Shown here: piece by piece, positions 34,202 to 63,590 of the stretch
Layout of the letters: every line of letters begins with the position of its first letter
Position numbering within the stretch: the stretch's first letter is position 1
From: Rhizobium sp. WYJ-E13
GTDB taxonomy: Bacteria; Pseudomonadota; Alphaproteobacteria; Rhizobiales; Rhizobiaceae
DNA: 64,000 nucleotides
Direction: 5' to 3'
Assembly (NCBI RefSeq): GCF_018987265.1
Contig: NZ_CP076854.1
Location: 1,736,001-1,800,000 of the forward strand
Notes under the pieces: generated by a model
Told to the model about the DNA's origin: nothing
Database searches by the model: none
What the model saw: only the letters and a program-made list of their open reading frames with translations
Translations under genes and position numbers: made by a program

Positions 34202-34215
34202 TTGATGCTGGTCAA
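34202..34215 (+). promoter_or_regulatory. FNR/FixK-type box
   Basis: TTGATGCTGGTCAA fits TTGAY-N4-RTCAA. Its centre is 70 nt before the start at 34279, and GAAAAT lies 21 nt downstream as a weak -10. Confidence 0.6.
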
Positions 34216-34278
34216 AGCATCATCCTTGGCATGTGTGAAAATGGCCATCAAGGATCACACTGGAGGAAAGGAACCGTC

Positions 34279-34656
34279 ATGCTGGCCCGGTCAACAATGG
34301 CGCTCAATCGTCCCGCAATCAGGACCGGAGCGACGACTCGAGATGTGACCAAACTCACGCCTTCGCTTTATGGAGGCTTTCACACGACGGGCGATGAAGG
34401 TGGCGCGCACGGAACTGTCGTAAAGGGCGACCTGATCATGCGCCGAGAGATCAAGGCAGTTCCATCGGAAGATCGCAACTGCGGCGCCGAGTTCGAGCTC
34501 GTACGCGACATCCCGAGTAACCGCTCGTCCATAGGGGACATCATCCTGCCTGTCGTCGTGGAAGAGGATGTTGAGGCGATGCGCGGCGTCGTCACCGGCT
34601 ACACTGACAGGCTGCAGGTTTCGTCCGCAGACATGCTTCATGGACGCCAATCCTGA
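34279..34656 (+). CDS. Hypothetical protein in FixK-box operon
   Basis: 125 aa, not recognised. It has no signal peptide or membrane segment and is rather charged, with phrases TRDVTKLTPSLYGGFHTTGDEGG and GDIILPVVVEEDVEAMRGVVTGYTDRL. The ATG at 34279 follows TGGAGGAAAGGAACC, a strong site, so translation is likely. It overlaps the start of the next gene by 17 nt, and an upstream FixK-type box suggests expression under low oxygen. A functional link with the membrane protein that follows is likely from the overlap, but its nature is unknown. Confidence 0.65.
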   Translation: MLARSTMALNRPAIRTGATTRDVTKLTPSLYGGFHTTGDEGGAHGTVVKGDLIMRREIKAVPSEDRNCGAEFELVRDIPSNRSSIGDIILPVVVEEDVEAMRGVVTGYTDRLQVSSADMLHGRQS

Positions 34657-35656
34657 CAATTATGTTGAAGTCCCTCCCAAGGAGTCGATGCCACGGAACC
34701 TGCTCGGTTTCGTGCTTCTGATGGGCCGATCCCATCAACTGGCTTTGGCTGCAATTTCGGTGCTTCTCTTTCTTGCCGGAACAGCGCCCCTGGAAATCCA
34801 GAGGCGAGTCATCAATGCGGCAACGCAGGGCGGCGCCTACCCGACCATCTTCGCTCTTGTCCTTGCTTATCTCGGCCTCGTCCTGCTGGAAGGACTGACT
34901 AAGCTCGGCTTGAACCTCTATCGCGGCTGGATCGGTGAGGTAGCGATCCGCTGGCTGCGGATGACGGTACTGTCAGCCTCCGATCAGTCGCGCAGGCATC
35001 CTCCCGACGCACTGGCAGAGGGCGTGCAGCTATCAATCGTTCTGGCCGAAGCCGAGCCGGTCGGCGGCTTCGTCGGCACGAGTATTTCCGAGCCGCTTCT
35101 ACAGGTCGGCATTCTCTGTGCGGTCGGGGGTTACATGATCTTCCTGCAGCCGCTCATGGCACTTGCCGTCGCCGTCGTCTTCTTGCCGCAGGTCGGCTTC
35201 GTGCCGCTCATGCAGCACGCCATTAACCGGCTCGTTGCAAGCAAGATTGCTATCATGCGGCATGTCAGCGAGGGAATGATTGAGCATGTCACTGGCAGCG
35301 ATCTGAGTGATGTCCAGGCCGATCGCGTGCAATCGCTTTTCGTCACCAACATGACGATCTACAAATTCAAGTTTTCGATGAATTTCCTTATGAACCTGAT
35401 GACGCAGCTGGGTTACGCCGGCATTTTCGCGCTCGGTGGCTACTACGTCGTCACCGGAAAGACCGAGATCGGCACGATCGTTGCGTTCGTGTCAGGGCTG
35501 TCGAAGATAACCGACCCTTGGGGGGCTTTGATCGACTGGTACCGCGACCTCACGGTTACTCAGGTCAAATACGCGATGATCCGTGATGCAAACGCCGATC
35601 AGGAGGCGCCAAAAGATCAGAATGATGCCGGGGCGAAGCGACGGACGATCACATAA
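34640..35656 (+). CDS. ABC-exporter-type transmembrane protein without ATPase domain
   Basis: 338 aa with about six hydrophobic segments, for example LALAAISVLLFLAGTAPLEI, FALVLAYLGLVLLEGL, LQVGILCAVGGYMIFL and LGYAGIFALGGYYVVTGKTEIGTIVAF. The order and the phrase GKTEIGTIVAFVSGLSKITDP match the type 1 exporter TMD (compare the usual G-x-(L/M)-T-x-G-x-(L/V)-x-A-F segment). The protein ends where the nucleotide-binding domain would begin; no Walker A or signature follows in any frame up to 35790. Either it pairs with a separate ATPase or it has another role. The ATG at 34640 lies inside the preceding gene. Confidence 0.72.
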   Translation: MDANPDNYVEVPPKESMPRNLLGFVLLMGRSHQLALAAISVLLFLAGTAPLEIQRRVINAATQGGAYPTIFALVLAYLGLVLLEGLTKLGLNLYRGWIGEVAIRWLRMTVLSASDQSRRHPPDALAEGVQLSIVLAEAEPVGGFVGTSISEPLLQVGILCAVGGYMIFLQPLMALAVAVVFLPQVGFVPLMQHAINRLVASKIAIMRHVSEGMIEHVTGSDLSDVQADRVQSLFVTNMTIYKFKFSMNFLMNLMTQLGYAGIFALGGYYVVTGKTEIGTIVAFVSGLSKITDPWGALIDWYRDLTVTQVKYAMIRDANADQEAPKDQNDAGAKRRTIT

Positions 35657-35697
35657 CTCTGGAAGCTCGTCATAAATGGCGCTCACGGGGCGCTGCT

Positions 35698-35711
35698 TTG
35701 ATGAAGCTCAA
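35698..35711 (+). promoter_or_regulatory. Possible FNR/FixK-type box
   Basis: TTGATGAAGCTCAA has one mismatch to TTGAY-N4-RTCAA. It lies 85 nt (centre to start) upstream of the universal stress gene at 35790, and GAAGAT occurs at the -10 spacing. Confidence 0.4.
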
Positions 35712-35789
35712 AGACGACCGCGCCAAAAGACAGAAGATGTTCGGCGGGACTGTCGCAATCCATCGCGGCGGCGTTGAGGGAGACCTGAC

Positions 35790-36314
35790 ATGTTCAAGAA
35801 CATTCTCATAGCGACGGACGGCTCCGAACATTCGAAAAAGGCCGTCGAGTTAGGAGCAGCTCTTGCGGCGGGGAGTGGCGGGCAGGTCGTTCTCGTGCAT
35901 GTTCTCCTCGTCGGAGAGGTCGATACTGATGTACAGCGGATGATCGACGCTGAATTTCCGGGAGCAGAACCAGCACTGGGCTCGGCCGATGACATCATGA
36001 GCACGAGGCTGGCAGCGCCGCGTTTTGATATTTCTCTTCATCGGGCGACCTCCTACCGGATTTTTCGCATCTTGGGCGATCAAATCATCGAGCAGGCCAT
36101 CAAGGTCGTCAAAGCGGAAGGCGTTGATCAGGTTTCAACGCTGCTGTTGGAAGGAAATCCTGCGGAGCAAATTCTCAACTCGGTCACCGACGTGCAGGCC
36201 GACGTCGTCATCTGTGGCGCTCGCGGCCTTTCCAGGTTCTCGGCGCTGCTCCTCGGCAGCGTATCCAACAAGATCGCGCAGCTTTGCCCTGTGACCTGCG
36301 TGACGGTTCGCTGA
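35790..36314 (+). CDS. Universal stress protein (single UspA domain)
   Basis: 174 aa. The N-terminus KNILIATDGSEHSKKAVELGAALA and the C-terminal nucleotide-binding motif GARGLSRFSALLLGSVS (G-x2-G-x9-GS) identify an ATP-binding UspA-family protein. Relative to minimal UspA it has an insert of about 25 residues in the middle. The ATG follows GGGAGACC. It is the first of three Usp genes in this island (also 39331 and 52269); such clusters are typical of oxygen-limitation regulons. Confidence 0.88.
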   Translation: MFKNILIATDGSEHSKKAVELGAALAAGSGGQVVLVHVLLVGEVDTDVQRMIDAEFPGAEPALGSADDIMSTRLAAPRFDISLHRATSYRIFRILGDQIIEQAIKVVKAEGVDQVSTLLLEGNPAEQILNSVTDVQADVVICGARGLSRFSALLLGSVSNKIAQLCPVTCVTVR

Positions 36315-39330: not shown

Positions 39331-40164
39331 ATGATACCACAGTATTTTCTTCCGCTGGCGACGTATCCCGATCCGAGTTCGGGATTGATCATTTCGAATG
39401 CCATCGCGTTCGCCGAGTTCTGCGGCGCAAATCTTCACGTCTGCGCGCAAAGAGTTGAGATTCCGCACATCCCCGACGCCTGGTCATCGCTGCTGCTCGA
39501 TACGCCAAAGATGATCGAGCAAGCCGAAAGCTTGAGCCGTGACCGGGCTGCAACGCTGATCGCCGCGGCGGAAAATCTGAGCGCAGGCACGGAAATTAAG
39601 GTGTTTACTCGAACGTTGAAGACCGCTTTGCCTTGGCTGCATGAAACAGTGACCACGCAAGCACGTTTCTTCGATCTCGCAACCCTCGAATGTATCGCCA
39701 GTATTCCGGACACCCGCATCGTCGCTGAAGCCGTCATATTCGGCTCAGGCCGACCGACCGTCATTTTTCCCAATAAGACTGTCGCCGGCAAGATCGATCA
39801 TCTGGTGATTGCATGGGATGGGAGCCGCGCAGCCGCTCGCGCCGTCAGCGATGCGCACGAGCTCATCCGGATGGCCCGGACCGTATCGGTCCTGTCGGTC
39901 ACTGGCGAAAAATCGCTTCCAGCCGACAGCGGAACGCACCTTGCTGAAATCTTGAGGTCGAGCGGCGTCGATGCCAAGGCAATGTTGGCCCAAGGTAGCG
40001 GGTCATCTATCGGCCAGAGCATCCAGCAGGCCGCACTCGAACTGGGCGGCGATTTTTTGGTCATGGGAGCATTCGGGCATTCTCGATTGCGAGACTTTGT
40101 CTTGGGCGGAGCAACTGGTGGGGTCTTGGACGAGCCGGCCTTGCCAGTTCTCATGTCCCATTGA
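39331..40164 (+). CDS. Universal stress protein, two-domain
   Basis: 277 aa. The N-terminal half (residues 1-140) is a divergent Usp domain, and the C-terminal half begins KIDHLVIAWDGSRAAARAVSDA and ends with the nucleotide-binding motif MGAFGHSRLRDFVLGGATGG. The ATG at 39331 is preceded by GGAGAGGTGGAGAAG. It is a close relative in layout of the protein at 52269-53102. It converges on the hybrid FixL gene. No clear FixK box was found in the 206 nt upstream. Confidence 0.86.
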   Translation: MIPQYFLPLATYPDPSSGLIISNAIAFAEFCGANLHVCAQRVEIPHIPDAWSSLLLDTPKMIEQAESLSRDRAATLIAAAENLSAGTEIKVFTRTLKTALPWLHETVTTQARFFDLATLECIASIPDTRIVAEAVIFGSGRPTVIFPNKTVAGKIDHLVIAWDGSRAAARAVSDAHELIRMARTVSVLSVTGEKSLPADSGTHLAEILRSSGVDAKAMLAQGSGSSIGQSIQQAALELGGDFLVMGAFGHSRLRDFVLGGATGGVLDEPALPVLMSH

Positions 40165-40278: not shown

Positions 40279-42180
40279 TTAATCAAGCAATTCGCGCAGA
40301 CGGATCGCAAGTTCGCGGGCCGTGTAGGGCTTCTTCAGCAAGCTTGTGGAGGGGGAAAGCTCGCGGCCGGCGATCGTCGGCTCGGCATAACCAGATGTGA
40401 AAAGGATCTTAATACCCGGCTTCAGCGTCCGCACGATATCCGCCAATTCGTCCCCGGTCATGCCGCCGGGCATGACGATATCGGTAAACAGCAGCGCGAC
40501 ATCAGGATAATCCTCAAGCCGGTCCAGTGCCTCGTGACCGTTTGCCGCTTCTATGACTTCGTAACCGGCACTGATGAGGCGGGAAACCGCAACACGGCGC
40601 ACGCGCGCATCGTCCTCCACGACGAGGATCGTCTCAAAACCGCGTGGAATGTGGGGCTCCGACCGTCCAGCCTGCGATTCCTGATCCGTGCCATCCTCTG
40701 CCACCTTGGGAACTGCCGGAACAAAGATGCGCACAGTCGTTCCCTGGCCCACCTCGCTATAAAGCTGAATATGGCCGCCGGATTGCTTGGCGAATCCGTA
40801 GACCATTGAAAGGCCGAGCCCCGTGCCGGAACCAAGGCCCTTGGTCGTGAAGAAGGGTTCGAAGGCCCGCTGCTTGACCTCCGCCGTCATGCCGCTGCCG
40901 GTGTCCGTCACCGAGATCAGCACATAGTCGCCAGTGCGCACCTGTGGATACATCTGCGCATAATCGGCGTCGAGCTTGACGCGCGAGATCTCGACCGAGA
41001 GCTTGCCGCCGCGCGGCATGGCATCTCGAGCGTTGAGCACAAGATTCAAAAGAGCGTTCTGTAACTGCGATCCATCAACCAGCGCGCTGTTGGACGAGCC
41101 AATCACGGTGGTGCGAAATTCGATCGCTTCGCCGAGCGTACGTCGCAGCAGGTCGGAAAAACCGGAAATAAGCTGCCCGACGTCGACGGGTTTCGGATTG
41201 AGCGGCTGGCGCCGACCGAAGGCGAGCAACTGGCCCGTAAGTTTCGCCCCGTCCTCCGCCGCCTCCTGCGCCTCACGCAGCAGCGGTCGCAGCCTTTCGT
41301 CCGTCAGTTTGTCCTCGATCATCTCGAGATTGCCGCTGATGACGGTAAGCAGATTGTTGAAGTCATGCGCAAGCCCGCCGGTCAGTTGGCCGATCGCTTC
41401 CATCTTCTGCGACTGGCGCAACTCCTCCTCGGTCTTGTGGCGGCTCGTGAGGTCGCGGATGAAGCCGGTGAAGATGCGTTTGCCATTGGTGACCGCCTCG
41501 CCGACGGAAAGCTCCATCGGAAAGACCGAACCATCCTTACGCTGCCCGGTCACCAGTCTACCATAACCAATAATCCGGCGCTCGCCGGTCATCAAGTATC
41601 GGGAGAGATGGCCGTCATGGGCGTCGCGATCCGGCTGCGACATCAGGATCTTGACGTTGCGCCCGCAGACTTCCGCGGAAGGATAACCGAAAAGCCGCTC
41701 TGCCGCAGCGCTGAAGGAGGAGATCCTGCCGGCATCGTCAATGACAATCATCGCTTCGGGAACCGTGGCCAGGATGGAGCGCAGATGTGCTTCCCTCTCC
41801 GCCAGATCATCCTGCATTCTCTTCATGCCGGTTACATCGTTGTTCGTTTGGATAATCATCGCTGTTTTGCCGAGCGATGGATTGAAGAGGGACCAGCGCG
41901 TGGCAATGAAAAGCGTTTGGCCGTTATTGTGTCGGTGCGTCACCTCCCCTTCCCACGCCCCTTGCCTTCGAACGGTTTCGCGGATTTCTTCCAAGGGTGT
42001 CGGAAACTGCGTTGCGAGAAGTTCGTGGACGACCTTTCCGACAGCCTCGTTTCGTGGCCATCCATAGAGAGCCTCGCAGCCACTGGTCCAGCGGTTGATT
42101 ATCCCGTCGAAACCGTGAACGACCACGTTTGCTCCGTCGAACATCAGGGCAATCTGGTCAAGCTCCGTCTCAATCGTCAT
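40279..42180 (-). CDS. fixL: Hybrid oxygen-sensor histidine kinase, FixL type (PAS - heme PAS - kinase - receiver)
   Basis: 633 aa, no membrane segments. PAS1 covers about 8-120 and PAS2 about 130-245. PAS2 is of the heme FixL kind: His188 in the DRDAHDG loop and Arg208 in RRIIGYGRLVTGQRKDG are 20 residues apart, as are His200 and Arg220 of Bradyrhizobium FixL. A HisKA helix has GGLAHDFNNLL with His272. The HATPase domain has NLVLNARDAM, DTGSGM and GLGSGTGLGLSMVYGF. A C-terminal receiver (ETILVVEDDARVRR ... LLFTDIVMPGG) makes it a hybrid, as reported for R. etli and R. leguminosarum. It lies 33 nt downstream of fixK, same direction. Its usual partner FxkR is not in the window. Confidence 0.9.
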   Translation of the reverse strand: MTIETELDQIALMFDGANVVVHGFDGIINRWTSGCEALYGWPRNEAVGKVVHELLATQFPTPLEEIRETVRRQGAWEGEVTHRHNNGQTLFIATRWSLFNPSLGKTAMIIQTNNDVTGMKRMQDDLAEREAHLRSILATVPEAMIVIDDAGRISSFSAAAERLFGYPSAEVCGRNVKILMSQPDRDAHDGHLSRYLMTGERRIIGYGRLVTGQRKDGSVFPMELSVGEAVTNGKRIFTGFIRDLTSRHKTEEELRQSQKMEAIGQLTGGLAHDFNNLLTVISGNLEMIEDKLTDERLRPLLREAQEAAEDGAKLTGQLLAFGRRQPLNPKPVDVGQLISGFSDLLRRTLGEAIEFRTTVIGSSNSALVDGSQLQNALLNLVLNARDAMPRGGKLSVEISRVKLDADYAQMYPQVRTGDYVLISVTDTGSGMTAEVKQRAFEPFFTTKGLGSGTGLGLSMVYGFAKQSGGHIQLYSEVGQGTTVRIFVPAVPKVAEDGTDQESQAGRSEPHIPRGFETILVVEDDARVRRVAVSRLISAGYEVIEAANGHEALDRLEDYPDVALLFTDIVMPGGMTGDELADIVRTLKPGIKILFTSGYAEPTIAGRELSPSTSLLKKPYTARELAIRLRELLD

Positions 42181-42213: not shown

Positions 42214-42966
42214 TCAGTGGCGCGGCCGCCTTTCACATGCAGCCTGCTTCCACCCGTCCCCCGCCAATTCGTCGTCACTTCCTGACAATTGCACAAGCGC
42301 AGACCGCTTCACGACGCGAAGGGAATGACGTCCCACAGGCGCAAGCACGCCCTTATTCGTCAGCTTCGTGATAGAACGGGAAACCGTCTCGATGGTGAGG
42401 CCGAGATAGTCGGCGATGTCCAGTCGGGTCATTGGCAGCTCGATCACGAAATCGCCCTGCCCTTCCGAGACCGCGCGAAGAAGCTCTCTTAGAAGAAAAG
42501 TGCAAATCCGCTCTTCGGCGCTCTTGCAGGACAGGAGGACCATCTGATCTTGGGCAGCGGCCATTTCGTCGCAGAGACGGGCGAAGACCTCCGGCCGCAA
42601 CTCCGACGAACTGGCGACTTCGCTATCGAATGCCTTGCGCGAGAAACGTCGTACCTTCGTGTTGGTAATGGCTTCGGCACTGTAGAGATAGTGGTCCTTC
42701 AGCGAGACGCCGACGATGTCGCCGGCGTGCAGAAATCCTGTGATGACGCGGCGGCCATCCGAGATGATCTTGAAGATGCGAAGGGTCCCTTCGACGACTT
42801 CGAACAGGTGCTTGGCAGCGTCGCCTTCGAAAAAAAGGGACTGGCCGGCGACCAGACGTTCGACAGGTTGTCTCCTAAAAAGCTCCTGAATGCAATTCGG
42901 CTCGGAGCCAAGGAGCACCGCATTGTTGATCTGCTTGTCTTGATGAAAAGTGGCGCCCTGCAGCAT
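42214..42966 (-). CDS. fixK: CRP/FNR-family regulator, FixK type
   Basis: 250 aa. A cyclic-nucleotide-binding-like sensor domain (about 30-140, AGQSLFFEGDAAKHLFEVVEGTLRI given in part) precedes a winged helix with LDIADYLGLTIETVSRSI. The recognition residues E-x-x-S-R equal those of FNR and FixK, which read TTGAT half-sites. The N-terminus has only one cysteine (EPNC), so it cannot hold the FNR-type 4Fe-4S cluster; this argues for FixK rather than FnrN. The ATG at 42966 follows CGGAGGGACGAAG; a longer frame to 43233 runs through the promoter. It probably activates the many boxes in this region. Confidence 0.87.
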   Translation of the reverse strand: MLQGATFHQDKQINNAVLLGSEPNCIQELFRRQPVERLVAGQSLFFEGDAAKHLFEVVEGTLRIFKIISDGRRVITGFLHAGDIVGVSLKDHYLYSAEAITNTKVRRFSRKAFDSEVASSSELRPEVFARLCDEMAAAQDQMVLLSCKSAEERICTFLLRELLRAVSEGQGDFVIELPMTRLDIADYLGLTIETVSRSITKLTNKGVLAPVGRHSLRVVKRSALVQLSGSDDELAGDGWKQAACERRPRH

Positions 42967-43050: not shown

Positions 43051-43070
43051 TTTGTAACAGTTTGTAACAA
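43051..43070 (-). promoter_or_regulatory. Direct repeat upstream of fixK (candidate K-box)
   Basis: Plus strand has two exact tandem copies of TTTGTAACA spaced 10 bp. Read toward fixK this is GTTACA-N4-GTTACA, one helical turn apart, as expected for an OmpR-type response regulator. It ends 85 nt before the fixK start. I recall the FxkR-binding K-box of R. etli fixK as this kind of repeat. Confidence 0.65.
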
Positions 43071-43145
43071 ATGTCGGCGCAACGCCGTATTGCCGTAGCC
43101 ACCTCCCCCATTCTGCCAGACGGTCAGAACCGCCCGGAAAGGCAA

Positions 43146-43577
43146 TCAAAGGCGATAGATGACGCCGTGGTCCCATCGATGACGGAACTCCTGATCGTCG
43201 AGCACACTCCAAATCTCGGGTCGAAGAGACCAAAATCGCAGATATTTGCTCTTCGCATCGATCGCCTGTCTCTCGATACAGGCAAACAGGGCTGCCGCGA
43301 TTTCATGTTCGTGGAGCGGGCTTATGACAATGAACATCGCTACGTCGAACAGCGGCCCGGCAACAGGGTGCTTTTCGAGGCGAACATGGCAAAGGCCGCG
43401 AGAGTAACCCCTGGTGTCGGTCGCTACGATAAAGTTGCGCCGCTCCGAGCCGCCGGTTACCCGGCGCCAGGAATCAAGTGTCAGATCAGGCATTGCCGCC
43501 TGCGCTATGACGTAAGTGCGGTCAATCTGGTCTTTCTGCAGAGGGCCGATGACAAAACCGCTATTGTTAGGCGTCAT
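43146..43577 (-). CDS. GNAT-like hypothetical protein
   Basis: 143 aa, soluble. The layout (GFVIGPLQKDQIDRTYVIAQAAMPDLTL, then beta strands NFIVATDTRGYSRGLCHVRLE, then HEHEIAAALFACIERQAIDAKSKYLRFW) resembles an N-acetyltransferase fold, but the acetyl-CoA pyrophosphate loop is not clear. The ATG at 43577 follows CGGAGACCTCAG. It is 180 nt upstream of fixK and 22 nt downstream of a 50-aa open frame headed by a FixK-type box, suggesting a small oxygen-regulated unit. Confidence 0.6.
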   Translation of the reverse strand: MTPNNSGFVIGPLQKDQIDRTYVIAQAAMPDLTLDSWRRVTGGSERRNFIVATDTRGYSRGLCHVRLEKHPVAGPLFDVAMFIVISPLHEHEIAAALFACIERQAIDAKSKYLRFWSLRPEIWSVLDDQEFRHRWDHGVIYRL

Positions 43578-43599
43578 CTGAGGTCTCCGTTACATTGGA

Positions 43600-43752
43600 C
43601 TACACCCTGGCGCTTTGCCAGTGATGGACGTGACGCTCCGTATTCGATGGTCTGACAAATGCCGCCACCTGCCGAAGAACATCGCCAGCACATCCCCGCC
43701 CGTTAGAGCCGCCAATCTCGCCGAGATCAACGTGCTCCGCAGGCTCCGTCAT
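43600..43752 (-). CDS. Possible 50-aa protein headed by a FixK box
   Basis: An open frame of 50 codons starting at ATG 43752 and ending TAG at 43600, encoding MTEPAEHVDLGEIGG... with GGC- and GCG-rich codons like its neighbours. AGGTGTA precedes the ATG closely. A box TTGACCCGCATCAA (43815) lies 70 nt upstream in the right orientation, and its stop is 22 nt before the GNAT-like gene. No similarity is recognised. It could be a true small gene or a leader segment. Confidence 0.4.
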   Translation of the reverse strand: MTEPAEHVDLGEIGGSNGRGCAGDVLRQVAAFVRPSNTERHVHHWQSARV

Positions 43753-43814: not shown

Positions 43815-43828
43815 TTGACCCGCATCAA
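43815..43828 (-). promoter_or_regulatory. FNR/FixK-type box
   Basis: TTGACCCGCATCAA fits TTGAY-N4-RTCAA. In the leftward direction TAGGGT lies near the -10 spacing; rightward the same position is GC-rich, so it more likely serves the 50-aa frame and GNAT-like gene. Confidence 0.55.
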
Positions 43829-44068: not shown

Positions 44069-44082
44069 TTGAGGTATGTCAA
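44069..44082 (+). promoter_or_regulatory. FNR/FixK-type box
   Basis: TTGAGGTATGTCAA differs from TTGAY-N4-RTCAA at one position. Its centre is 63 nt before the CBS gene start, and TATCCT lies 22 nt downstream as -10. Confidence 0.6.
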
Positions 44083-44138: not shown

Positions 44139-44621
44139 ATGACGATCCCCGCTAAATCGGTAATGACAACGGATTTAATTACGGTGTCGCCTGAGACCAC
44201 CGTAGCCGAGGCCGCCCGGCGCATGCTGATCCATCACGTCACCGCCGTACCTGTGGTGGACCCCGATAACCGGCCGCTTGGATTGGTCAGCGAAGGCGAC
44301 GTGATGCGCCACTTCGGCGCGCAGTTTCAAAGTAAGCGAGCGGAATGGCTACGCCTGCTGGCGGAAGGCGAGACACTCGCGCCGGAGTTTCTTGCCGAAA
44401 TCCGCCTCAACCAGCAACGCGTCCGCGAGATTATGCATTCAACCATCATCTCCGCTGATCAGGAAACCTCTCTTGCAGAGTTGGCTGATCTGATGCTGAA
44501 ACATGGGATCAAGCGCGTTCTTATCCTGCGTGACGGCGTGTTGGTTGGCATCGTCAGCCGCGCCGATGTGGTTCGGGCCGTGGTGGAAAAACTGGACGAC
44601 TTGCTTGAGCCGACGGACTAG
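44139..44621 (+). CDS. CBS-domain protein
   Basis: 160 aa, essentially two CBS motifs: AKSVMTTDLITVSPETTVAEAARRML with VVDPDNRPLGLVSEGDVMRHF, then REIMHSTIISADQETSLAELADLMLKHGIKRVLILRDGVLVGIVSRADVVRAV, given as spans. CBS pairs bind adenine nucleotides and sense energy state. No catalytic domain is attached. The start at 44139 is supported by AGCTGGAGCC upstream and by the box geometry. It belongs with the CBS-BON protein at 60731 in the FixK-box set. Confidence 0.85.
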   Translation: MTIPAKSVMTTDLITVSPETTVAEAARRMLIHHVTAVPVVDPDNRPLGLVSEGDVMRHFGAQFQSKRAEWLRLLAEGETLAPEFLAEIRLNQQRVREIMHSTIISADQETSLAELADLMLKHGIKRVLILRDGVLVGIVSRADVVRAVVEKLDDLLEPTD

Positions 44622-45116: not shown

Positions 45117-45278
45117 CGGTCCTAGCGACACCGATGCTGGCGGAAGTCCCCCTCGCGAAGACGGGCCTGACAGTGGCTTCCGGCTTACCTCCGCGCGCTC
45201 TCGGGTCCGTCGTCGTGCCAGAATGCTTCGAGCGGATCTATTTCCGCGCCAGATCGGCAGTGCTCGATATCACCCATT

Positions 45279-48175: not shown

Positions 48176-48231
48176 GTCCGCCTCCTTTGCGCCCTTTGGT
48201 ATCGTCTTCCCACGAACGACGCGAACAATCC

Positions 48232-48245
48232 TTGATAGGGATCAA
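48232..48245 (-). promoter_or_regulatory. FNR/FixK-type box (perfect)
   Basis: TTGATAGGGATCAA is a perfect TTGAT-N4-ATCAA dyad. Its centre is 63 nt before the FtsH start at 48175. Confidence 0.75.
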
Positions 48246-48539
48246 CATTGAGCAATCGGGGAGCCGGGCAGCATTCATCGGTATGGTGAGAGACCGGCGC
48301 AGCGCATCTTCAACGCGGCGTGCCGTTCAGGCTGACACGGGTTTCTCGAAGGTCGGCAGCGAACGAGTCAAGGTCCCGATTGGCCGCATCCGTCTAGGGC
48401 TTCGTTACCGGCCAGGCTGGAGGGGCTGCCGCAGCAACCCATCTATTTCAATCTCCGGCGCGCCCTCTTTCAAGCGTGCTCGACTGCCCGCTGTCTCCAT
48501 CGCCGCAAACCTGCCAACGGCCGTAGATCTCTCCTCATT
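48246..48539. other. Divergent intergenic region
   Basis: About 294 nt between two back-to-back FixK-type boxes (48232 leftward, 48540 rightward). No supported gene is seen; GC-rich short frames exist in several readings without ribosome-binding sites. Confidence 0.5.
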
Positions 48540-48553
48540 TTGACAGGGATCAA
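48540..48553 (+). promoter_or_regulatory. FNR/FixK-type box
   Basis: TTGACAGGGATCAA fits TTGAY-N4-RTCAA. Centre is 59 nt before the BON gene start at 48606, and CTAACA lies at the -10 spacing. Confidence 0.68.
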
Positions 48554-49502: not shown

Positions 49503-49516
49503 TTGATGCGCGTCAA
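49503..49516 (+). promoter_or_regulatory. FNR/FixK-type box upstream of hsp20
   Basis: TTGATGCGCGTCAA fits the consensus. TCTAAT lies 23 nt after it. It is 125 nt (centre to start) before hsp20, implying a leader of about 80 nt. Confidence 0.6.
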
Positions 49517-51226: not shown

Positions 51227-51240
51227 TTGACCAGCGTCAA
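51227..51240 (-). promoter_or_regulatory. FNR/FixK-type box
   Basis: TTGACCAGCGTCAA fits the consensus (reads TTGACGCTGGTCAA toward the gene). Exactly 21 nt after it comes TACAAT, and the start codon at 51171 is 62 nt from the centre. Confidence 0.75.
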
Positions 51241-52199: not shown

Positions 52200-52213
52200 T
52201 TGACGAAGGTCAA
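52200..52213 (+). promoter_or_regulatory. FNR/FixK-type box
   Basis: TTGACGAAGGTCAA fits the consensus. TATTCT begins 21 nt (plus one) after it and the Usp start at 52269 is 62 nt from the centre. Confidence 0.75.
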
Positions 52214-53538: not shown

Positions 53539-54837
53539 ATGCCTGTCACCGCAATATCCGAGAAACTGTCGGTCTCGCCGCAGCCGAGCATCGAGACCAT
53601 CCAGTCGCTTTACGACAGAGGCTTTAGGACACTGATCAACAACCGGCCGGATGATGAAGATTCTGCCCAGCCAGGAACGCAGGGCGAAAGCCAGGAAGCA
53701 AAGCACTGCAAACTGTCCTATGCATTCATTCCGGTCACACTTGGTGCGATCACCGAGGCGGACGTCCGTGCGTTTCAGCGCGCAGTCGACGAATCCGAAG
53801 GGCCGGTGTTCGCCCATTGCAAGACCGGCACCCGATCACTCAGCCTCTACCTGATCGGTGAGGTTCTTGACGGCCGGATGCCTGCAGACGCGGTGGTCGA
53901 GTTCGGACACGTCCGGGGCTTCGACACAAGCGGCGCCGCAGCCTGGCTTAAGACACATGCCGCGCGCCGACCGCAGGTGAAGGGCTTTTTCGACAAGCGC
54001 ACCTGGAGCGTCCAGTACGTGGTGTCCGATCCGGCGACCGGCAAGTGCGCCATCGTGGATCCGGTCCTGGACTTCGATGAGAAGGCGGGCGCGACAGCGA
54101 CCACCAATGCCGACGCAATCCTCGAATACGTCCGCAGCCGGGGGCTGACCGTCGAGTGGATCCTAGATACCCATCCGCATGCCGACCACTTCTCGGCCGC
54201 CCAGTATCTTAAGGAGAAGACCGGGGCTCCGACAGCCATCGGCGAGCGCGTCGTCGACGTCCAGAAGCTGTGGAAGGGCATCTACAACTGGCCTGAACTT
54301 GCGACCGACGGCTCGCAATGGGACCGTTTGTTCGCCCACGGTGAAACCTTCAAGGTCGGCTCGATCGATGCCAAGGTGCTGTTCTCGCCCGGACATACGC
54401 TCGCCTCCATCACCTATGTGATCGGCGACGCAAGCTTCGTGCACGACACGCTCTTCATGCCCGACAGCGGCACGGCGCGCGCCGACTTCCCCGGGGGCGA
54501 TGCCCGCATTTTATGGAATTCGATCCAGGAGATCCTCACCCTCCCCGACGAGATGCGGATCTTCACGGGCCACGACTATCAGCCAAAGGGCCGTGCACCC
54601 CGTTGGGAAAGCACGGTGGCCGACCAGAAGAAGTCCAACCCGCATCTTGCCGGCGTGACGGAGGAAGAATTCGTGGCGCTCAGGACGAAGCGGGACAAGA
54701 CGCTGCCAATGCCGAAGCTCATCCTGCACGCCCTGCAGGTGAACATCCGCGGCGGGCGCCTGCCGGAGCCTGAAGCCAACGGCAAGCGCTACCTCAAATT
54801 TCCACTCGATGCATTGGAGGGAGCAGCATGGGAATGA
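53539..54837 (+). CDS. blh: Blh: DUF442 phosphatase-like domain fused to persulfide dioxygenase
   Basis: 432 aa. Residues 1-135 form a DUF442 cysteine-phosphatase/rhodanese-like domain with HCKTGTRS (Cys-x5-Arg). Residues about 148-432 form an ETHE1-like metallo-beta-lactamase domain with the metal motif HPHADHFSAAQYL, FSPGHTLASITY and FTGHDYQP. The enzyme oxidises glutathione persulfide from H2S to sulfite. The ATG at 53539 follows CACGGAGTTGGC. It is the first gene of a five-gene operon with coupled starts, downstream of the AT-rich operator. Confidence 0.91.
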   Translation: MPVTAISEKLSVSPQPSIETIQSLYDRGFRTLINNRPDDEDSAQPGTQGESQEAKHCKLSYAFIPVTLGAITEADVRAFQRAVDESEGPVFAHCKTGTRSLSLYLIGEVLDGRMPADAVVEFGHVRGFDTSGAAAWLKTHAARRPQVKGFFDKRTWSVQYVVSDPATGKCAIVDPVLDFDEKAGATATTNADAILEYVRSRGLTVEWILDTHPHADHFSAAQYLKEKTGAPTAIGERVVDVQKLWKGIYNWPELATDGSQWDRLFAHGETFKVGSIDAKVLFSPGHTLASITYVIGDASFVHDTLFMPDSGTARADFPGGDARILWNSIQEILTLPDEMRIFTGHDYQPKGRAPRWESTVADQKKSNPHLAGVTEEEFVALRTKRDKTLPMPKLILHALQVNIRGGRLPEPEANGKRYLKFPLDALEGAAWE

Positions 54838-55175
54838 CGTCCGATCTGAAGGCGATGATGAAGGCGGGGGTTGCCCGCGCCGAAATGGCTACCCGGGCCG
54901 GCGAAGTTGCGGATCTATTGAAGACGCTGTCCCATCCGGCCCGCCTGATGATCGTCTGCACGCTCATCGAAGGCGAGTATTCGGTCGGCGAACTTGAAGA
55001 GAAACTCGACGTGCACCAGCCGCATCTGTCGCAGCACCTGACTGTGCTGCGTGGCTCCGGCATCGTCGAAACGCGACGGGAAGGAAAGCAGATCTTCTAC
55101 CGCCTGACCGAGGCAAAGGCTGCCCGACTGGTCGCCGCCCTCTATGACATCTTCTGCGTGAAGGAAGAAGAATGA
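54828..55175 (+). CDS. bigR: BigR-type ArsR-family repressor
   Basis: 115 aa winged-helix repressor: EVADLLKTLSHPARLMIVCTLIEGE, SVGELEEKLDVHQPHLSQHLTVLRGSGIVETRREGK and IFYRL in the wing (spans). Two cysteines (44 and 110 from this start) form the redox switch that releases DNA upon sulfide or persulfide; from the alternative ATG at 54834 they are Cys42 and Cys108, as in the characterised BigR. GGAGGGAGCAGC favours 54828. It overlaps the blh stop, and its own stop overlaps the next gene by ATGA. Confidence 0.92.
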   Translation: MGMTSDLKAMMKAGVARAEMATRAGEVADLLKTLSHPARLMIVCTLIEGEYSVGELEEKLDVHQPHLSQHLTVLRGSGIVETRREGKQIFYRLTEAKAARLVAALYDIFCVKEEE

Positions 55176-55582
55176 ACACCTATCTCCCATCCCTGGCCGG
55201 CGGCATACTCATCGGCGCGTCCGCTACCATGCTTCTTCTTCTCAACGGCCGGATCGCCGGGATCAGCGGGATTGTCGGGCATCTCGCTCAGGGCGTCGGA
55301 GTGACCACCAATCTTGCCTTCGTGCTTGGGCTGCTGCTCGGGCCGATTGCCTACCTGCTCGTCTTCGGCGATTGGCCAGTGGTCGACATCACCGCAGGCT
55401 GGCCGCTCATCATCGTCGCGGGGCTGCTCGTCGGCTTCGGCGCGCGGATGGGCTCCGGCTGCACGAGCGGGCACGGCGTGCTGGGCCTCGCCCGCCTGTC
55501 GCCGCGCTCCATGGTGGCCGTCGCTACTTTCCTGACGGCCGGCATGGTCGCCGTCACAGTTTTGCGGAGCCTTGGAATATGA
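55172..55582 (+). CDS. YeeE/YedE-family membrane protein (sulfur transport, first half)
   Basis: 136 aa with four hydrophobic helices. It contains the YeeE signature GFGARMGSGCTSGHGVLGLARLS with a conserved Cys in SGCTSGHG, which in the related YeeE lies in the thiosulfate path. It overlaps bigR by ATGA upstream and the second half protein by ATGA downstream, so both halves are probably made in equal amounts. Confidence 0.85.
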   Translation: MNTYLPSLAGGILIGASATMLLLLNGRIAGISGIVGHLAQGVGVTTNLAFVLGLLLGPIAYLLVFGDWPVVDITAGWPLIIVAGLLVGFGARMGSGCTSGHGVLGLARLSPRSMVAVATFLTAGMVAVTVLRSLGI

Positions 55583-56010
55583 ACAGGAACATCTACCGGT
55601 TCGCGGCCGCTCTCGTCTCCGGCGTCGTCTTCGGATTGGGCCTGTCGCTCTCCGGCATGCTGAACCCGGCTCGCATCCAAGGCTTCCTCGACGTCTTCGG
55701 CGCATGGGATCCGAGCCTCGCCTTCGTTCTTGGCGGCGCTGTCGCCATTGCCTTCGTTGGCGTGCAGGTGATGAACCGGATACGACATCCTGCCTTCGAC
55801 GACAGCTTCCATGTCCCAACGAGCCGGCGGGTCGACGCGCCGCTGGTCGTCGGCTCGGCCTTGTTTGGTCTCGGCTGGGGGATCGGCGGCTTCTGTCCCG
55901 GCCCGGCCGTCGCCTCCCTGTCGCTCGGTATTCCGCAAACCGTCCTGTTCGTCATCGCCATGCTGGTCGGGATGACCTTGTACGACAGAGTATGGAGCAG
56001 ACGGGCATGA
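55579..56010 (+). CDS. YeeE/YedE-family membrane protein (second half, DUF6691-like)
   Basis: 143 aa with four hydrophobic helices: YRFAAALVSGVVFGLGLSLSGML, LAFVLGGAVAIAFVGVQV, LVVGSALFGLGWGIGGFCPGPA and TVLFVIAMLVGMTLY. GGFCPGPA is the second conserved cysteine motif of the YeeE family. Starts and stops overlap with both neighbours by ATGA. With the preceding protein it should form one sulfur-compound transporter. Confidence 0.85.
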   Translation: MNRNIYRFAAALVSGVVFGLGLSLSGMLNPARIQGFLDVFGAWDPSLAFVLGGAVAIAFVGVQVMNRIRHPAFDDSFHVPTSRRVDAPLVVGSALFGLGWGIGGFCPGPAVASLSLGIPQTVLFVIAMLVGMTLYDRVWSRRA

Positions 56011-56768
56011 GCACTTCCATCCTCGCGGCAGTCGGCTCCGGCGGGATCGTCGGGTTCATGCTCGGCCTACTCGGCGGCGGAGGCTCCATTCTGGCCACTC
56101 CGCTGCTCCTCTACGTCGTTGGTGTGAGCCAGCCTCATATCGCAATCGGAACGGGGGCGCTTGCGGTCTCGGTGAACGCGTTCGCGAACTTTGCAAGCCA
56201 CGCGATCAAGGGGCACGTCTGGTGGCGCTGCGCAGCCGTCTTCTCGGCACTTGGCGTTCTCGGAGCGCTCGCCGGATCCAGCCTCGGCAAGGCGATGGAC
56301 GGAGGCCGTCTGATCTTCCTGTTCGCAGTCCTGATGGTCGTCGTCGGCGCCTTGATGCTAAAGCCCCGCAAGGCGGTGACGGCGGAGTGCCGGCCGGTCG
56401 ACCTCAAGATGTGCCTCGCGACTGCGGTCGTGGCACTCGCCGCCGGCGCTGCATCCGGTTTCTTCGGAATCGGCGGCGGCTTCCTGATCGTTCCCGGCCT
56501 GATGCTGGCGACAGGCATGCCGATGATCAACGCGATCGGGACATCTCTGCTCTCCGTCGGTGCGTTCGGACTGGCGACGGCGTTGAATTATGCCAGTTCA
56601 GGATTGGTGGATTGGTGGCTTGCCGCGGAGTTCATCGGGGGCGGCATCACCGGCGGTTTGCTCGGCATGCTGGCCGCCACACGACTAAGCGGCTACAAGA
56701 ACGTCCTCAACCGCCTCTTCGCGGTGCTGATCTTCGTAGTCGCCGCGTACATCTTCTATCGCAACTAG
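56007..56768 (+). CDS. TauE/SafE-family sulfite exporter
   Basis: 253 aa with about eight helices. The two family repeats are visible: GFMLGLLGGGGSILATPLLLYVVGV near the start and AGAASGFFGIGGGFLIVPGLMLATGMP in the middle. Members export sulfite or sulfoacetate. As the last gene of the blh operon it would remove the sulfite made by persulfide oxidation. The start overlaps the previous stop by ATGA; no clear terminator follows. Confidence 0.87.
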   Translation: MSTSILAAVGSGGIVGFMLGLLGGGGSILATPLLLYVVGVSQPHIAIGTGALAVSVNAFANFASHAIKGHVWWRCAAVFSALGVLGALAGSSLGKAMDGGRLIFLFAVLMVVVGALMLKPRKAVTAECRPVDLKMCLATAVVALAAGAASGFFGIGGGFLIVPGLMLATGMPMINAIGTSLLSVGAFGLATALNYASSGLVDWWLAAEFIGGGITGGLLGMLAATRLSGYKNVLNRLFAVLIFVVAAYIFYRN

Positions 56769-56858: not shown

Positions 56859-57506
56859 TCATGCGATCGTCAGGCGGTCTTCCAGCGTGCTGATACCCGG
56901 TGCCGACCAAGCGGCACGCTCAGCCGCGCGGCGTTGGGACCAGGTGGCGACCTTGCCGGACAAGATGACCTTTCGGCCCTGGACATCGACGCTAATATGG
57001 TTGGATTCGATTTCCGCGTCCCGTTCGAAGGCATCCTCGATGCGTTTCTTTATGTCCATAGCGCTCAGTTGTGGCTTGATTTCGATGAGATTGGAGACGC
57101 CGACAACACCGGCAAGGCTCTTCACGGAGGCGTAGGCCGCGTCCTTTTGATACTGCCACTCAACTTTGCCGGTGAGCGTGATCCAGCCTTTGAAAACCCT
57201 CACCTGGACGGTGTCCTTCGGCACACACACGTCCCAATCGAGCATCTTGACGGCTCTGGCGGCGATGTCATCGTCGTCAGTCGCGGCCGCGCCAAATATC
57301 CGCACCTCGATTTCCTGCGCGATCCCCCTGACGCCCTTGACCCGGCTAACGACCTGCTCGGCCGCTTCCCTCTCGGCATAGTTCGCAACATGGCCTGTCA
57401 GCGTAATGATGCCCTTCTCGACGATCACGCCGATTTCGGCCGCGTTGACCCTGGGATCAAACTCCAGTTCATCCAGAATATGCTGACGGAGTGAAAGATC
57501 GTTCAT
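56859..57506 (-). CDS. Triple BON-domain protein
   Basis: 215 aa containing three BON domains of about 65 residues each: LRQHILDELEFDPRVNAAEIGVIVEKGIITLTGHV (first), VPKDTVQVRVFKGWITLTGKVEWQYQKDAAYASV (second) and IEDAFERDAEIESNHISVDVQGRKVILSGKV (third), given as spans. No signal peptide is present, unlike periplasmic OsmY. The ATG at 57506 follows AAGGAGGGTGTT. A FixK-type box is 63 nt upstream. The protein at 48606 is a one-domain relative and that at 60731 ends in the same domain. Confidence 0.86.
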   Translation of the reverse strand: MNDLSLRQHILDELEFDPRVNAAEIGVIVEKGIITLTGHVANYAEREAAEQVVSRVKGVRGIAQEIEVRIFGAAATDDDDIAARAVKMLDWDVCVPKDTVQVRVFKGWITLTGKVEWQYQKDAAYASVKSLAGVVGVSNLIEIKPQLSAMDIKKRIEDAFERDAEIESNHISVDVQGRKVILSGKVATWSQRRAAERAAWSAPGISTLEDRLTIA

Positions 57507-57562: not shown

Positions 57563-57576
57563 TTGACCCTTGTCAA
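57563..57576 (-). promoter_or_regulatory. FNR/FixK-type box
   Basis: TTGACCCTTGTCAA fits the consensus. The centre is 63 nt before the BON gene start at 57506, and TATATG occurs 24 nt downstream of the box. Confidence 0.72.
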
Positions 57577-60668: not shown

Positions 60669-60682
60669 TTGATCAAGGTCAA
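60669..60682 (+). promoter_or_regulatory. FNR/FixK-type box
   Basis: TTGATCAAGGTCAA fits the consensus. TAGTCT begins 21 nt (plus one) after it, and the CBS-BON start is 55 nt from the centre. Confidence 0.72.
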
Positions 60683-60730: not shown

Positions 60731-61438
60731 ATGTCGACAGTGCAGACCATCATGACGCCAAACCCCGTGACGATCGGCGCGGAGGCGCGGATCTGGGAGG
60801 CGGCAAACTTGATGCTTGACCATGGCATCAGTGGTCTGCCCGTGACGCACGAGGCCGGACAGCTGGCCGGCGTCATCAGCGAAAGCGACTTCTTGCTGCG
60901 TGGAGAACTGCACACGGATCCGGCAAAAAGCTTCTGGCAACGGTTGTTTTCCACACGCGGCGCCCTGGCGGAAGACTATTCCAAGGCGTTCGGGCGAAAG
61001 GTCGGAGAGGTCATGTCCTCTCCGGCTGTCACCATCGGGGCCGAGGAGGCGGTCGGCGCCGCAGCTCTTCTCATGGCCGAGCGCAACATCAAGCGCCTGC
61101 CCGTCATTGCGGACGACAAGGTCGTCGGCGTCCTGACGCGATCCGACATCATGCGCTCGATGATCAAGGAGATGGCTGCACGTTCGGTCGAGAGGATCGA
61201 TGCGGATATCCGCCGCGCCCTGGAGGGCGAGCTCGATCATCAGCGGTGGGGCGACAACATTACGGTGCACGTGAAGGAAGCCATTGTCACACTCGAGGGG
61301 AAGGTCCTCGACTTAAGGGAGAAAACTGCGGCGCGCGTGGCGGCAGAAAATACACTGGGCGTGATTCAAGTCATCGACAACCTGCAGGTGGTTGTGCTGC
61401 CTGACATGCCTGTCCCGCCGCCTGGTTTTTACCCTTGA
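60731..61438 (+). CDS. CBS-pair and BON-domain protein
   Basis: 235 aa. Two CBS motifs (VQTIMTPNPVTIGAEARIWEAANLMLDHGISGLPVT near the start; VGEVMSSPAVTIGAEEAVGAAALLMAERNIKRLPVI in the middle, as spans) are followed by a C-terminal BON domain (about 160-225: DADIRRALEGELDHQRWGDNITVHVKEAIVTLEGKV). The ATG at 60731 follows AGGAGGCAAAA. It likely links adenylate sensing to a membrane- or surface-binding module. A FixK-type box lies upstream. The region 60471-60668 between it and the pta remnant shows no supported gene. Confidence 0.87.
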   Translation: MSTVQTIMTPNPVTIGAEARIWEAANLMLDHGISGLPVTHEAGQLAGVISESDFLLRGELHTDPAKSFWQRLFSTRGALAEDYSKAFGRKVGEVMSSPAVTIGAEEAVGAAALLMAERNIKRLPVIADDKVVGVLTRSDIMRSMIKEMAARSVERIDADIRRALEGELDHQRWGDNITVHVKEAIVTLEGKVLDLREKTAARVAAENTLGVIQVIDNLQVVVLPDMPVPPPGFYP

Positions 61439-62076: not shown

Positions 62077-62349
62077 ATGTCAGTCCCTAACGAGCTCGTC
62101 GAACCTTGGCATGAGCCGGTATATGTGCAGGTCGAGGCGCGAGGGCCGCAGATCATTCACAATCCGGCCGAAGCACTCGAGTTTCTCGCAAACGATTGGG
62201 TCGGATCGCGTCGAAAGCACTCATTCGCGCGGGAAATCTGTTCGGCTGCCGTGCGAAATCAAATTTCCAGCGACACCGCGCGCGAGGCGTTCTTGCAAGC
62301 AGTTCTCGATGCCAAAATAAACACCCGCGCCCCGGACAGTCAGCAGTAA
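62077..62349 (+). CDS. DUF982 protein
   Basis: 90 aa. The sequence EPVYVQVEARGPQIIHNPAEALEFLANDW and the closing AAVRNQISSDTAREAFLQAVLDAKI are characteristic of DUF982, a family of small proteins expanded in Rhizobiaceae with no known function. GGAGGAGAAGAAG precedes the ATG. It follows the DUF2267 gene by 95 nt and converges with the kinase-like gene (114 nt apart). Confidence 0.84.
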   Translation: MSVPNELVEPWHEPVYVQVEARGPQIIHNPAEALEFLANDWVGSRRKHSFAREICSAAVRNQISSDTAREAFLQAVLDAKINTRAPDSQQ

Positions 62350-62463
62350 ATTCCGGAGAGCCGCTTCGCCCGCCTCGAGAAGCCTTCCGGCAAGCATTAT
62401 GCGTCAAAAGCGATCCTGGCCGGCACGCGCCCCCGACGGCCGCTAGACGACGGCGCTCCAAAT

Positions 62464-63492
62464 TCAACGCGCCATTTTCGAGCCCACGCTGAAACCTGAA
62501 TACAAAGCGGCCTGCGCCAAGCTAACATACCTGTCCGTCTTCTGCTCCCATACGCTCGTTTCCTTTGCGCTGCCGTCAATCAGATGAGAATAGCTCATGC
62601 GTGCCCGCAGCGTTGCTCGAAAGGCCACGTAGAAGAACCACAGACTGTCGGGAATTTGATCGGCGAGCGCATGTTGCAGAAGACCTCGTATAGTCTCGCC
62701 TGCATCTCCCGCGCCTGAAAAGGCGCATTCCATCGCAAGAAAAGCAACCTCATCGAAGGGATCGATGAAGCGAAGTCGAGGATTGAACTCCAGGCAATCA
62801 AAAATCACGAGCGGGTCGCAGAAACATATGTGCTCGGGGCGCAGGTCGCCATGTCCCTCCACATAATGTCCACTCTCGATCCGTTGGACGATCGCATTCT
62901 GTACAGCATAAAAGGCGCAATCGAGGTCATTCAACACATGCGCAATTGCTCGATGATCGACGTCGAAACCCTCATGTCTCAACGTCTCCCTGGTGATGTC
63001 CTTCTGGCACTCGAGCGTGCGAAGATGGTCGCGAGGATCGATCGCTGGCCGAGCGCCCGTTCGATAGAAGTCGGCTAGCCGATCCACGAGCCCTGTCATA
63101 TGCCCCGGCGTGACGGCCCCGGTCTCAAGAAGCCGGTCAAGCATCAGCTTGTCTGGAAGGCGACGCATTTCCACCAGCCACTCGACCGCCTTGCCGCTTC
63201 CATCGAGACAGAGCGATCCATCCGCCTGCAATGTTACGGGTAGCACCGAGAGATACGTGTCCGGCGCCAGGCGCCGGTTGAGGCGCACCTCCTCACGACA
63301 ATTGACCTCGCGTGCGGCGAGCGTCGAAAAGTTCATGAAAGGACCCGTTACCGGCTTCTTCAGCTTGTAAACCCTGTCATCATGCAAGAAGACGAAGGAC
63401 ATATGGGTTTCGCGAACGGTGACCGGAAAGTCCGGCTTGCCGTAGGTGGACGGTTCGCTCAGAAAGCTGACAATCTCGTTCAGGGTCGCCAA
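62464..63492 (-). CDS. Aminoglycoside-phosphotransferase-fold (COG2187-like) protein
   Basis: 342 aa. It has a kinase-like fold with VFLHDDRVYKLKKPV near residue 35 (Lys for ATP), the catalytic loop HGDLRPEHICF with Asp, and the metal-binding DCLEFNPRLRFIDPFDEVAFLAMEC region (span). Longer relatives carry a second P-loop kinase domain after this; here the frame ends without one. I choose TTG at 63492: GAGGAG precedes it by 6 nt and the FixK-type box then sits at the usual 63 nt; the alternative TTG at 63510 has no such site. Substrate unknown. Confidence 0.75.
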   Translation of the reverse strand: MATLNEIVSFLSEPSTYGKPDFPVTVRETHMSFVFLHDDRVYKLKKPVTGPFMNFSTLAAREVNCREEVRLNRRLAPDTYLSVLPVTLQADGSLCLDGSGKAVEWLVEMRRLPDKLMLDRLLETGAVTPGHMTGLVDRLADFYRTGARPAIDPRDHLRTLECQKDITRETLRHEGFDVDHRAIAHVLNDLDCAFYAVQNAIVQRIESGHYVEGHGDLRPEHICFCDPLVIFDCLEFNPRLRFIDPFDEVAFLAMECAFSGAGDAGETIRGLLQHALADQIPDSLWFFYVAFRATLRARMSYSHLIDGSAKETSVWEQKTDRYVSLAQAALYSGFSVGSKMAR

Positions 63493-63548
63493 AGAAAACT
63501 CCTCAAGCAAGTATCGAACAATCTTAATCGAAAGAGCGTCTTCTCCGG

Positions 63549-63562
63549 TTGATGTCGGTCAA
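63549..63562 (-). promoter_or_regulatory. FNR/FixK-type box (leftward)
   Basis: TTGATGTCGGTCAA fits the consensus. Read leftward, TTAAGA lies 21 nt after it and the TTG start at 63492 is 63 nt from the centre. Confidence 0.7.
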
Positions 63563-63576
63563 TCCGCTTTCCCGTT

Positions 63577-63590
63577 TTGACTTCGATCAT
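63577..63590 (+). promoter_or_regulatory. FNR/FixK-type box (rightward)
   Basis: TTGACTTCGATCAT, one mismatch at the last base. TATTCT follows after 21 nt and the ATG at 63642 is 58 nt from the centre. It lies 15 nt from the leftward box, giving a divergent promoter pair. Confidence 0.6.

Follow-up and report, generated by a model that had tools for sequence, protein, structure and literature searches.

The right half of the 64,000-nt stretch of Rhizobium sp. WYJ-E13 DNA analyzed here (the window, C2:1736001-1800000) very probably belongs to a stress island for low-oxygen (microoxic) conditions, an FNR/FixK regulon on a 2.15-Mb replicon, a megaplasmid. This reading draws on the observed motifs and their enrichment, a pooled promoter spacing, gene identities and, for some promoters, conservation. 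The genome comprises 6.9 Mb in three contigs (C1, C2 and C3), C2 being 2,149,667 bp long. We defined the anaerobox, the FNR/FixK-type operator, as an exact match to TTGAY-N4-RTCAA and found 10 such boxes in the window, all outside called genes, against 0.13 expected; the maximum in 100 dinucleotide shuffles of the window was 2. The cluster of boxes reported in the initial annotation of this DNA thus withstood the comparison with shuffled sequence that the annotation itself had put forward. With up to one mismatch allowed, 20 boxes were found against 4.98 expected (shuffle maximum 13). The annotation had counted about fourteen boxes in noncoding DNA. Fourteen TTGA-N6-TCAA cores are indeed present, but 52287 lies in coding sequence, and the box counted at 63577 (TTGAC...ATCAT) has one mismatch and does not match the core; the box at 44069 is also a one-mismatch box. 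When the gap between TTGA and TCAA was varied, N4 and N5 gave no site and N7 and N8 one each, compared with the 14 for N6.

The same pattern was then counted genome-wide, where 59 exact boxes were found compared with 4 for the reversed pattern. They are distributed as 19 on C1, 40 on C2 and none on C3, and 52 of the 59 lie outside called genes, with 7 inside. Four clusters on C2, with bounds set after looking, hold 34 of the 59 boxes in 102 kb, or 1.5% of the genome. The cluster in and just beyond the window, its bounds likewise set after looking, has 14 boxes in 40.7 kb against 0.35 expected, and 12 boxes fall within one 30-kb stretch, whereas 2,000 uniform placements gave at most 5. Among 24 sampled genomes of the same genus (G001-G024) the number of boxes ranged from 16 to 57, so that the 59 found here are the highest among those examined. 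These counts show the operator enrichment that marks an FNR/FixK (anaerobox) regulon.

A pattern scan of the first 34 kb found no exact box, as the initial annotation had said. This emptiness is real but is weak evidence, because the left half is gene-dense: genes are tightly packed from 1 to 34000, where our calls leave 2,170 bp (6%) noncoding, compared with 6,897 bp (23%) in the right half, and at equal density per noncoding base a split of 0 and 10 boxes has a p of about 0.065. The strong evidence comes from the shuffles and the genome comparisons. Gene starts and noncoding totals are approximate, as they come from a home-made Markov gene caller; its starts replaced the listed open reading frame starts for fixK (TTG 43233) and several neighbors, and a universal stress protein (Usp) gene that it skipped (39331-40164) was added by hand.

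Most boxes in the window stand at similar distances from the start codons that follow them. For five exact boxes and the one-mismatch box at 44069 the box center is 62.5-63.5 nt from the start codon, and 8 of the 10 exact boxes lie 55-71 nt away. All ten distances given in the initial annotation (62-64 nt for six boxes, 55-70 nt for four) agree with our recalculated values of 55.5-70.5 nt. For 27 of the 52 noncoding boxes genome-wide, the window's ten included, the nearest start was 54-80 nt away, and for 8 of the 52 it was 61.5-64.5 nt away; among random noncoding sites the shares were 8.9% and 1.2%, respectively. Among 97 promoters of relatives, preselected to have a box 45-135 nt from the start, 47 have it at 55-80 nt. 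The fixed geometry of 62-64 nt that had been proposed is therefore tight in the window; it is a local feature, and the spacing is looser elsewhere.

We also scored -10-like hexamers downstream of the boxes, using a rough weight table of our own and averaging over box-gene orientations. In 41 orientations, 10 of them in the window, the score peaked exactly 22 nt after the box, at -0.01, compared with -1.64 for the 99.9th percentile of the shuffle maxima, and no such peak was seen on 23 opposite sides. The preselected promoters of relatives (97 nonredundant orientations from 78 loci, the two nearest loci excluded) again peaked at 22 nt (-0.71) and then at 21 nt (-1.2), compared with -2.94. The hexamers that the initial annotation had placed 21 nt after the boxes at 51227, 52200, 60669 and 63577 do begin there, but the modal spacing genome-wide is 22 nt. 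If the hexamer occupies the standard -12 to -7, the box center would be at -41.5, a value predicted from hexamer spacing; the hexamer scores support the class II-like spacing claimed earlier, whereas the position of the box relative to the start site is less firm, as noted below. Of the 12 boxes examined, 10 have predicted leaders of 15-32 nt, in line with the short leaders of about 20 nt expected earlier; those for 49503 and 43815 would be 84-86 nt and 204-206 nt long.

A Crp/FNR-family gene, fixK, is located in the middle of the cluster, as the initial annotation had recognized. Its product matches Pfam cNMP_binding, HTH_Crp_2 and Crp, has no N-terminal cysteine cluster and carries the recognition helix LGLTIETVSR, of the FNR-like E-x-x-S-R type; fold, helix and missing cysteine cluster together are those of the non-FeS FixK branch. 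It is 74% identical to FixK9b of R. johnstonii 3841 (Rlv3841) and 50% identical to its own paralog at C2:1626k; its best NCBIfam match, the Caulobacter FixK model, scored 137 bits, under the cut-off of 300. The annotation named FixK but overlooked two neighbors, a K-box (GTTACA-N4-GTTACA, the predicted FxkR operator, 43053-43068) and an hFixL-type hybrid histidine kinase gene. The genome has only two exact K-boxes, and both precede a fixK gene that is followed by an hFixL gene. In related loci a K-box lies within 250 nt upstream of fixK with at most one mismatch in 73 of 80 and with at most two in all 80, compared with 13 of 400 random 250-nt stretches of the same loci with at most two mismatches, some of which are perhaps the K-box itself.

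In 72 of the 80 related loci the gene for hFixL immediately follows fixK. The window hFixL is 63% identical to its own paralog at C2:1626914 and could be aligned with hFixL9 of Rlv3841, including a His-containing PAS stretch that presumably has a heme role. The best match to FxkR in the genome, 64% identical to FxkR9 of Rlv3841, is encoded at C2:1616489-1617199, about 160 kb away. We rejected an open reading frame beside fixK (43071-43655) as fxkR, since it has no Pfam match and the best FxkR match is the distant one. The genome thus has a K-box before fixK, a receiver-bearing hybrid FixL beside it and an encoded FxkR, the parts of an hFixL-FxkR-FixK cascade. This chain is the likely input to the island, because an exact K-box lies upstream and hFixL downstream of fixK, and the K-box and the receiver-bearing kinase favor FxkR, rather than FixJ, as the input to fixK.

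In the scheme that we propose, hFixL would use its PAS domain to sense low oxygen and would pass phosphate to the distantly encoded FxkR, which may then activate fixK-hfixL through the K-box; sensor and activator would raise each other in a positive feedback. FixK would then switch on the island. At most boxes a weak -10 element about 22 nt after the box would give a class II layout, in which a dimer of FixK or FnrN on the box contacts RNA polymerase and sets off transcription when oxygen falls. Binding, activation, oxygen dependence, phosphotransfer and feedback are all predictions of this scheme.

Box conservation was examined in Rhizobium sp. BK316 and R. mesosinicum, the nearest named relatives by FixK among the loci listed (98% and 91%, respectively). 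Eight window boxes were compared, seven of the ten exact ones and 44069; alignments were not obtained for 34202 and 52200 in R. mesosinicum or for 48232 and 48540 in BK316. In the 12 alignable comparisons none of the 96 TTGA/TCAA positions had changed, compared with five changes at degenerate positions, and the flanks were 79-97% identical. For the CBS-BON gene (60731), an exact box was found upstream of 17 of 29 non-self fetched homologs, including the 14 best-scoring, two of which have it at 59.5-60.5 nt. For the island-type ftsH, three of four relatives have an exact box (locus L162 and R. leguminosarum 22B at 66.5 nt, Rhizobium sp. NLR16a at 64.5 nt), and none of 27 housekeeping ftsH genes has one. 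Operators are therefore kept before orthologous genes for CBS-BON, for island ftsH and in 12 of 12 alignable comparisons, but not for the host-attachment gene, whose homologs we set aside as an uninformative test because only distant copies were found. Most of the LPG-synthase/ftsH/BON block (45139-49433) is missing from the otherwise collinear BK316 locus, so island content varies.

Several observations weigh against the reading of the right half as part of a low-oxygen stress island. The boxes at 43815 and 49503 are far from any start (244.5 and 124.5 nt). Strict TANNNT hexamers are rare, with 4 among the 41 orientations at each of the spacings 22 and 21 nt, and no good hexamer lies 20-23 nt after the boxes at 48232 and 57563, the best near 57563 being TATATG at 24 nt. 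The mapped Rlv3841 starts in Table 1 of PMC7888657 put the box center at -39.5 for fixNOQP9 and -38.5 for fixGHIS9, and these two promoters have poor hexamers 22 nt after the box. Twelve of the 29 fetched CBS-BON homologs have no exact box, and 12 of the 14 best have it 96-194 nt from the projected start. The island-type ftsH ortholog at locus L163 has no box, and none of 29 fetched homologs of the host-attachment gene, all distant (about 43% identity or less), has an exact box. No exact box was found near the island genes for Usp at 39331, the Blh-BigR operon or DegP at 58534.

We considered whether the boxes could be an effect of chance or composition, or hairpin-like repeats without a regulatory role. 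The gene-dense left half does explain most of the contrast between the halves, as this account would have it, but the shuffles, the reversed pattern, the clustering and the -10 register contradict it, and the core is retained across species while the N4 changes. We rejected chance and composition on the shuffles, the reversed pattern, the gap control and the clustering, and regard the whole account as having practically no probability. That some boxes are repressor or distant sites, so that activation at low oxygen does not extend evenly over the island, is unlikely but deserves more weight. The two distant boxes would fit it, and in Rlv3841, according to PMC7888657, the anaerobox at fnrN acts in repression and a second of this kind is proposed at fxkR9; the start-codon distances of the other eight exact boxes and the pooled -10 register, however, fit activation.

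The most serious alternative is that the boxes are real but are mainly operators of the chromosomal FnrN, the second FixK or another Crp/FNR protein, with the window FixK minor for most of them; we judge this less probable than not, though well within reach. The E-x-x-S-R helix also occurs in the second FixK (C2:1626k), FnrN (C1:2333k) and the Crp/FNR protein (C1:2917k), and FNR, FixK and DNR sites are described as virtually identical in PMC2908626. FnrN has a cysteine cluster (CxxCx7C), and upstream of its gene (C1:2332961) are two anaeroboxes 31 bp apart (C1:2332721-2332765), like the dual layout reported for Rlv3841 fnrN. A small heat shock protein (sHSP) gene of strain UPM791 requires FnrN, as reported in PMC11784457. 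Against this alternative, the K-box-fixK-hfixL arrangement is central in the box cluster and is retained in relatives, and free-living microaerobic expression in Rlv3841 is mainly hFixL-FxkR-dependent, according to PMC7888657. Because the other three proteins share the recognition helix, the boxes cannot be assigned to the window FixK alone: the FixK-box regulon of the initial annotation holds as an FNR/FixK-type operator cluster, and we hold the window FixK to be its main activator with less confidence than we hold the regulon itself. The chromosomal FnrN and the second FixK probably act at these boxes too, and three or four regulators may use them, which agrees with what we found in PMC2908626 and PMC4999443. 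At C1:2916991 a box stands 86.5 nt before the Crp/FNR gene with the E-A-L-S-R helix, whose product is a possible further user.

Returning to the low-oxygen regulon, the closest known island is that on pRL9 of R. johnstonii 3841, with 15 exact boxes in 40 kb; R. leguminosarum 22B has 11 in 29 kb. Islands of the pRL9 type carry fixNOQP, fixK9a-hfixL9, hemN, fixK9b/fxkR9, adhP, CBS, Usp, host-attachment and ftsH genes, kinds similar to those in the window, and a K-box with one mismatch upstream of fixK9b. The window differs in pairing a fixK9b-type fixK with hfixL, and its genome has fxkR near a separate fix cluster that holds a fixK9a-type gene. In R. leguminosarum, hFixL-FxkR-FixK activates anaerobox genes at 1% oxygen, as described in PMC7888657. 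In the FixK2 stress cluster of Bradyrhizobium diazoefficiens (bll4634-blr4655), genes for Hsp20, Usp, host attachment, GroEL and PpsA that carry boxes stand near one another, and their expression depends on FixK2 (PMC9104804). According to Table 2 of that paper, expression of box-bearing Hsp20, Usp, host-attachment, CBS, GroEL5, PpsA and nitroreductase genes drops about 11- to 111-fold when fixK2 is missing, and PMC6515984 reports proteins of several of these kinds as raised in microoxia. In B. diazoefficiens FixK2 is described as switched on by FixLJ, whereas the window K-box points to hFixL-FxkR. In UPM791, the FnrN regulon includes the sHSP RLV_1399, whose Hsp20 gene has an upstream anaerobox and microaerobic, FnrN-dependent expression; its box is centered 87.5 nt from the translation start according to PMC11784457, compared with 124.5 nt for the window Hsp20.

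The window is thus a sister of the Bradyrhizobium FixK2 programme, with hFixL-FxkR input as in R. leguminosarum (PMC7888657). The system clearly represents a known kind, and its parts were already known; what the present analysis adds is the K-box/hFixL input, the overlap of regulators, the replicated 22-nt register, the limits of start-codon spacing and the correspondence with the targets of Bradyrhizobium FixK2. It offers a sharply testable set of about a dozen promoters that share an operator type and a register and whose input is mapped. It also supports the view that the FixK/FnrN response of rhizobia serves protein protection (Usp, Hsp20, FtsH, CBS, BON) no less than respiration, that such genes gather in plasmid islands, and that the response has targets similar to those of Bradyrhizobium FixK2. 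A passage of PMC2908626 infers that, except in Nitrobacter, Bradyrhizobium and Rhodopseudomonas, FixK orthologs have no set of targets in common. Contrary to that inference, we raise, quite tentatively and with more doubt than confidence, the idea that rhizobia have a low-oxygen persistence module that is portable and carries its own amplifier (a fixK-hfixL pair driven by a K-box amid anaerobox targets, with a shared FxkR elsewhere), and that its target set is common to Rhizobium and Bradyrhizobium. The targets would be of the Usp, Hsp20, CBS, BON, FtsH and host-attachment types, to which sister clusters add PpsA, GroEL, a cation ATPase and a nitroreductase. Similar kinds of genes (Usp, Hsp20, CBS, cation ATPase, nitroreductase) occur in the DosR hypoxia regulon of mycobacteria, which has an unrelated regulator and operator; the module may be a functional counterpart of such actinobacterial dormancy regulons under a different regulator. 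Our literature search found related clusters, and we noticed in it no account of this genome or of the DosR comparison.

Table 1. Anaeroboxes, regulatory genes and the K-box in the window. Distances run from the box center to the start codon.
Feature	Position	Strand	Distance (nt)	Adjoining gene or remark	Hexamer (nt after box)	In relatives
Exact anaerobox	34202..34215	+	70.5	34279-34656 (hypothetical protein), then 34640-35656 (weak ABC_membrane match)		identical in Rhizobium sp. BK316
TTGA-N6-TCAA core, one mismatch to full pattern	35698..35711	+	85.5	universal stress protein gene 35790-36314		
hFixL-type hybrid histidine kinase gene	40279..42180	-		PAS-PAS-HisKA-HATPase-REC (Pfam); downstream of fixK		
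fixK (Crp/FNR family)	42214..42966	-		start shifted from TTG 43233 to ATG 42966 by gene model (most likely start)		
Exact K-box (predicted FxkR operator)	43053..43068	-	94	upstream of fixK ATG		
Exact anaerobox	43815..43828	-	244.5 (nearest start)	possible target 43146-43577 (hypothetical protein) via long leader	TAGGGT (22)	identical in two relatives, flanks 79-81% identical
One-mismatch anaerobox (TTGAG)	44069..44082	+	63.5	CBS-domain gene 44139-44621	TATCCT (22)	TTGA/TCAA core retained in two relatives
Exact anaerobox	48232..48245	-	63.5	island-type ftsH 46328-48175, then LPG-synthase-TM gene 45279-46319		
Exact anaerobox	48540..48553	+	59.5	BON-domain gene 48606-48857	TAACAA (22)	identical in R. 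mesosinicum
Exact anaerobox	49503..49516	+	124.5	Hsp20 gene 49634-50161	TCTAAT (22)	identical in two relatives
Exact anaerobox	51227..51240	-	62.5	host-attachment/baeRF12-type gene 50722-51171	TACAAT (21)	core retained in two relatives
Exact anaerobox	52200..52213	+	62.5	universal stress protein gene 52269-53102	TATTCT (21)	core retained in BK316
Exact anaerobox	57563..57576	-	63.5	triple-BON gene 56859-57506		
Exact anaerobox	60669..60682	+	55.5	CBS-BON gene 60731-61438	TAGTCT (21)	
Exact anaerobox	63549..63562	-	63.5	62464-63492 (TTG start; sub-threshold APH-fold match)	TAAGAT (22)	
One-mismatch anaerobox	63577..63590	+	58.5	gene starting 63642 (extends past window)	TATTCT (21)	

Nine exact boxes lie within 125 nt of a called start, and their genes encode a universal stress protein, Hsp20, BON, CBS-BON, triple BON, FtsH, a host-attachment type protein and two others. 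The targets in the window with Pfam matches are Usp, Hsp20, CBS (behind a one-mismatch box), CBS-BON, BON, triple BON, FtsH with its LPG-synthase-TM partner, and the baeRF12/host-attachment protein. Other box-bearing genes in the genome include those for FixG, CcoN, pseudoazurin, a P-type cation ATPase and an APH-AAA protein, together with inositol-phosphatase family, alcohol dehydrogenase, CBS, GYD, phosphoribosyltransferase and nitroreductase-family genes.

A Blh-BigR-YeeE-YeeE-TauE sulfide module (53539-56768) lies inside the island without an exact or one-mismatch anaerobox, and it is 80-90% identical in many rhizobial plasmids. What is encoded at 59979-60470 matches a phosphotransacetylase-family protein in its C-terminal portion only (PTA_PTB profile positions 182-308 of 319) and is possibly a remnant or the result of a misread start. 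The island runs past the window: in C2:1798001-1818000, boxes occur before a Usp gene and the genes for PEP synthase, glucokinase and GroEL.

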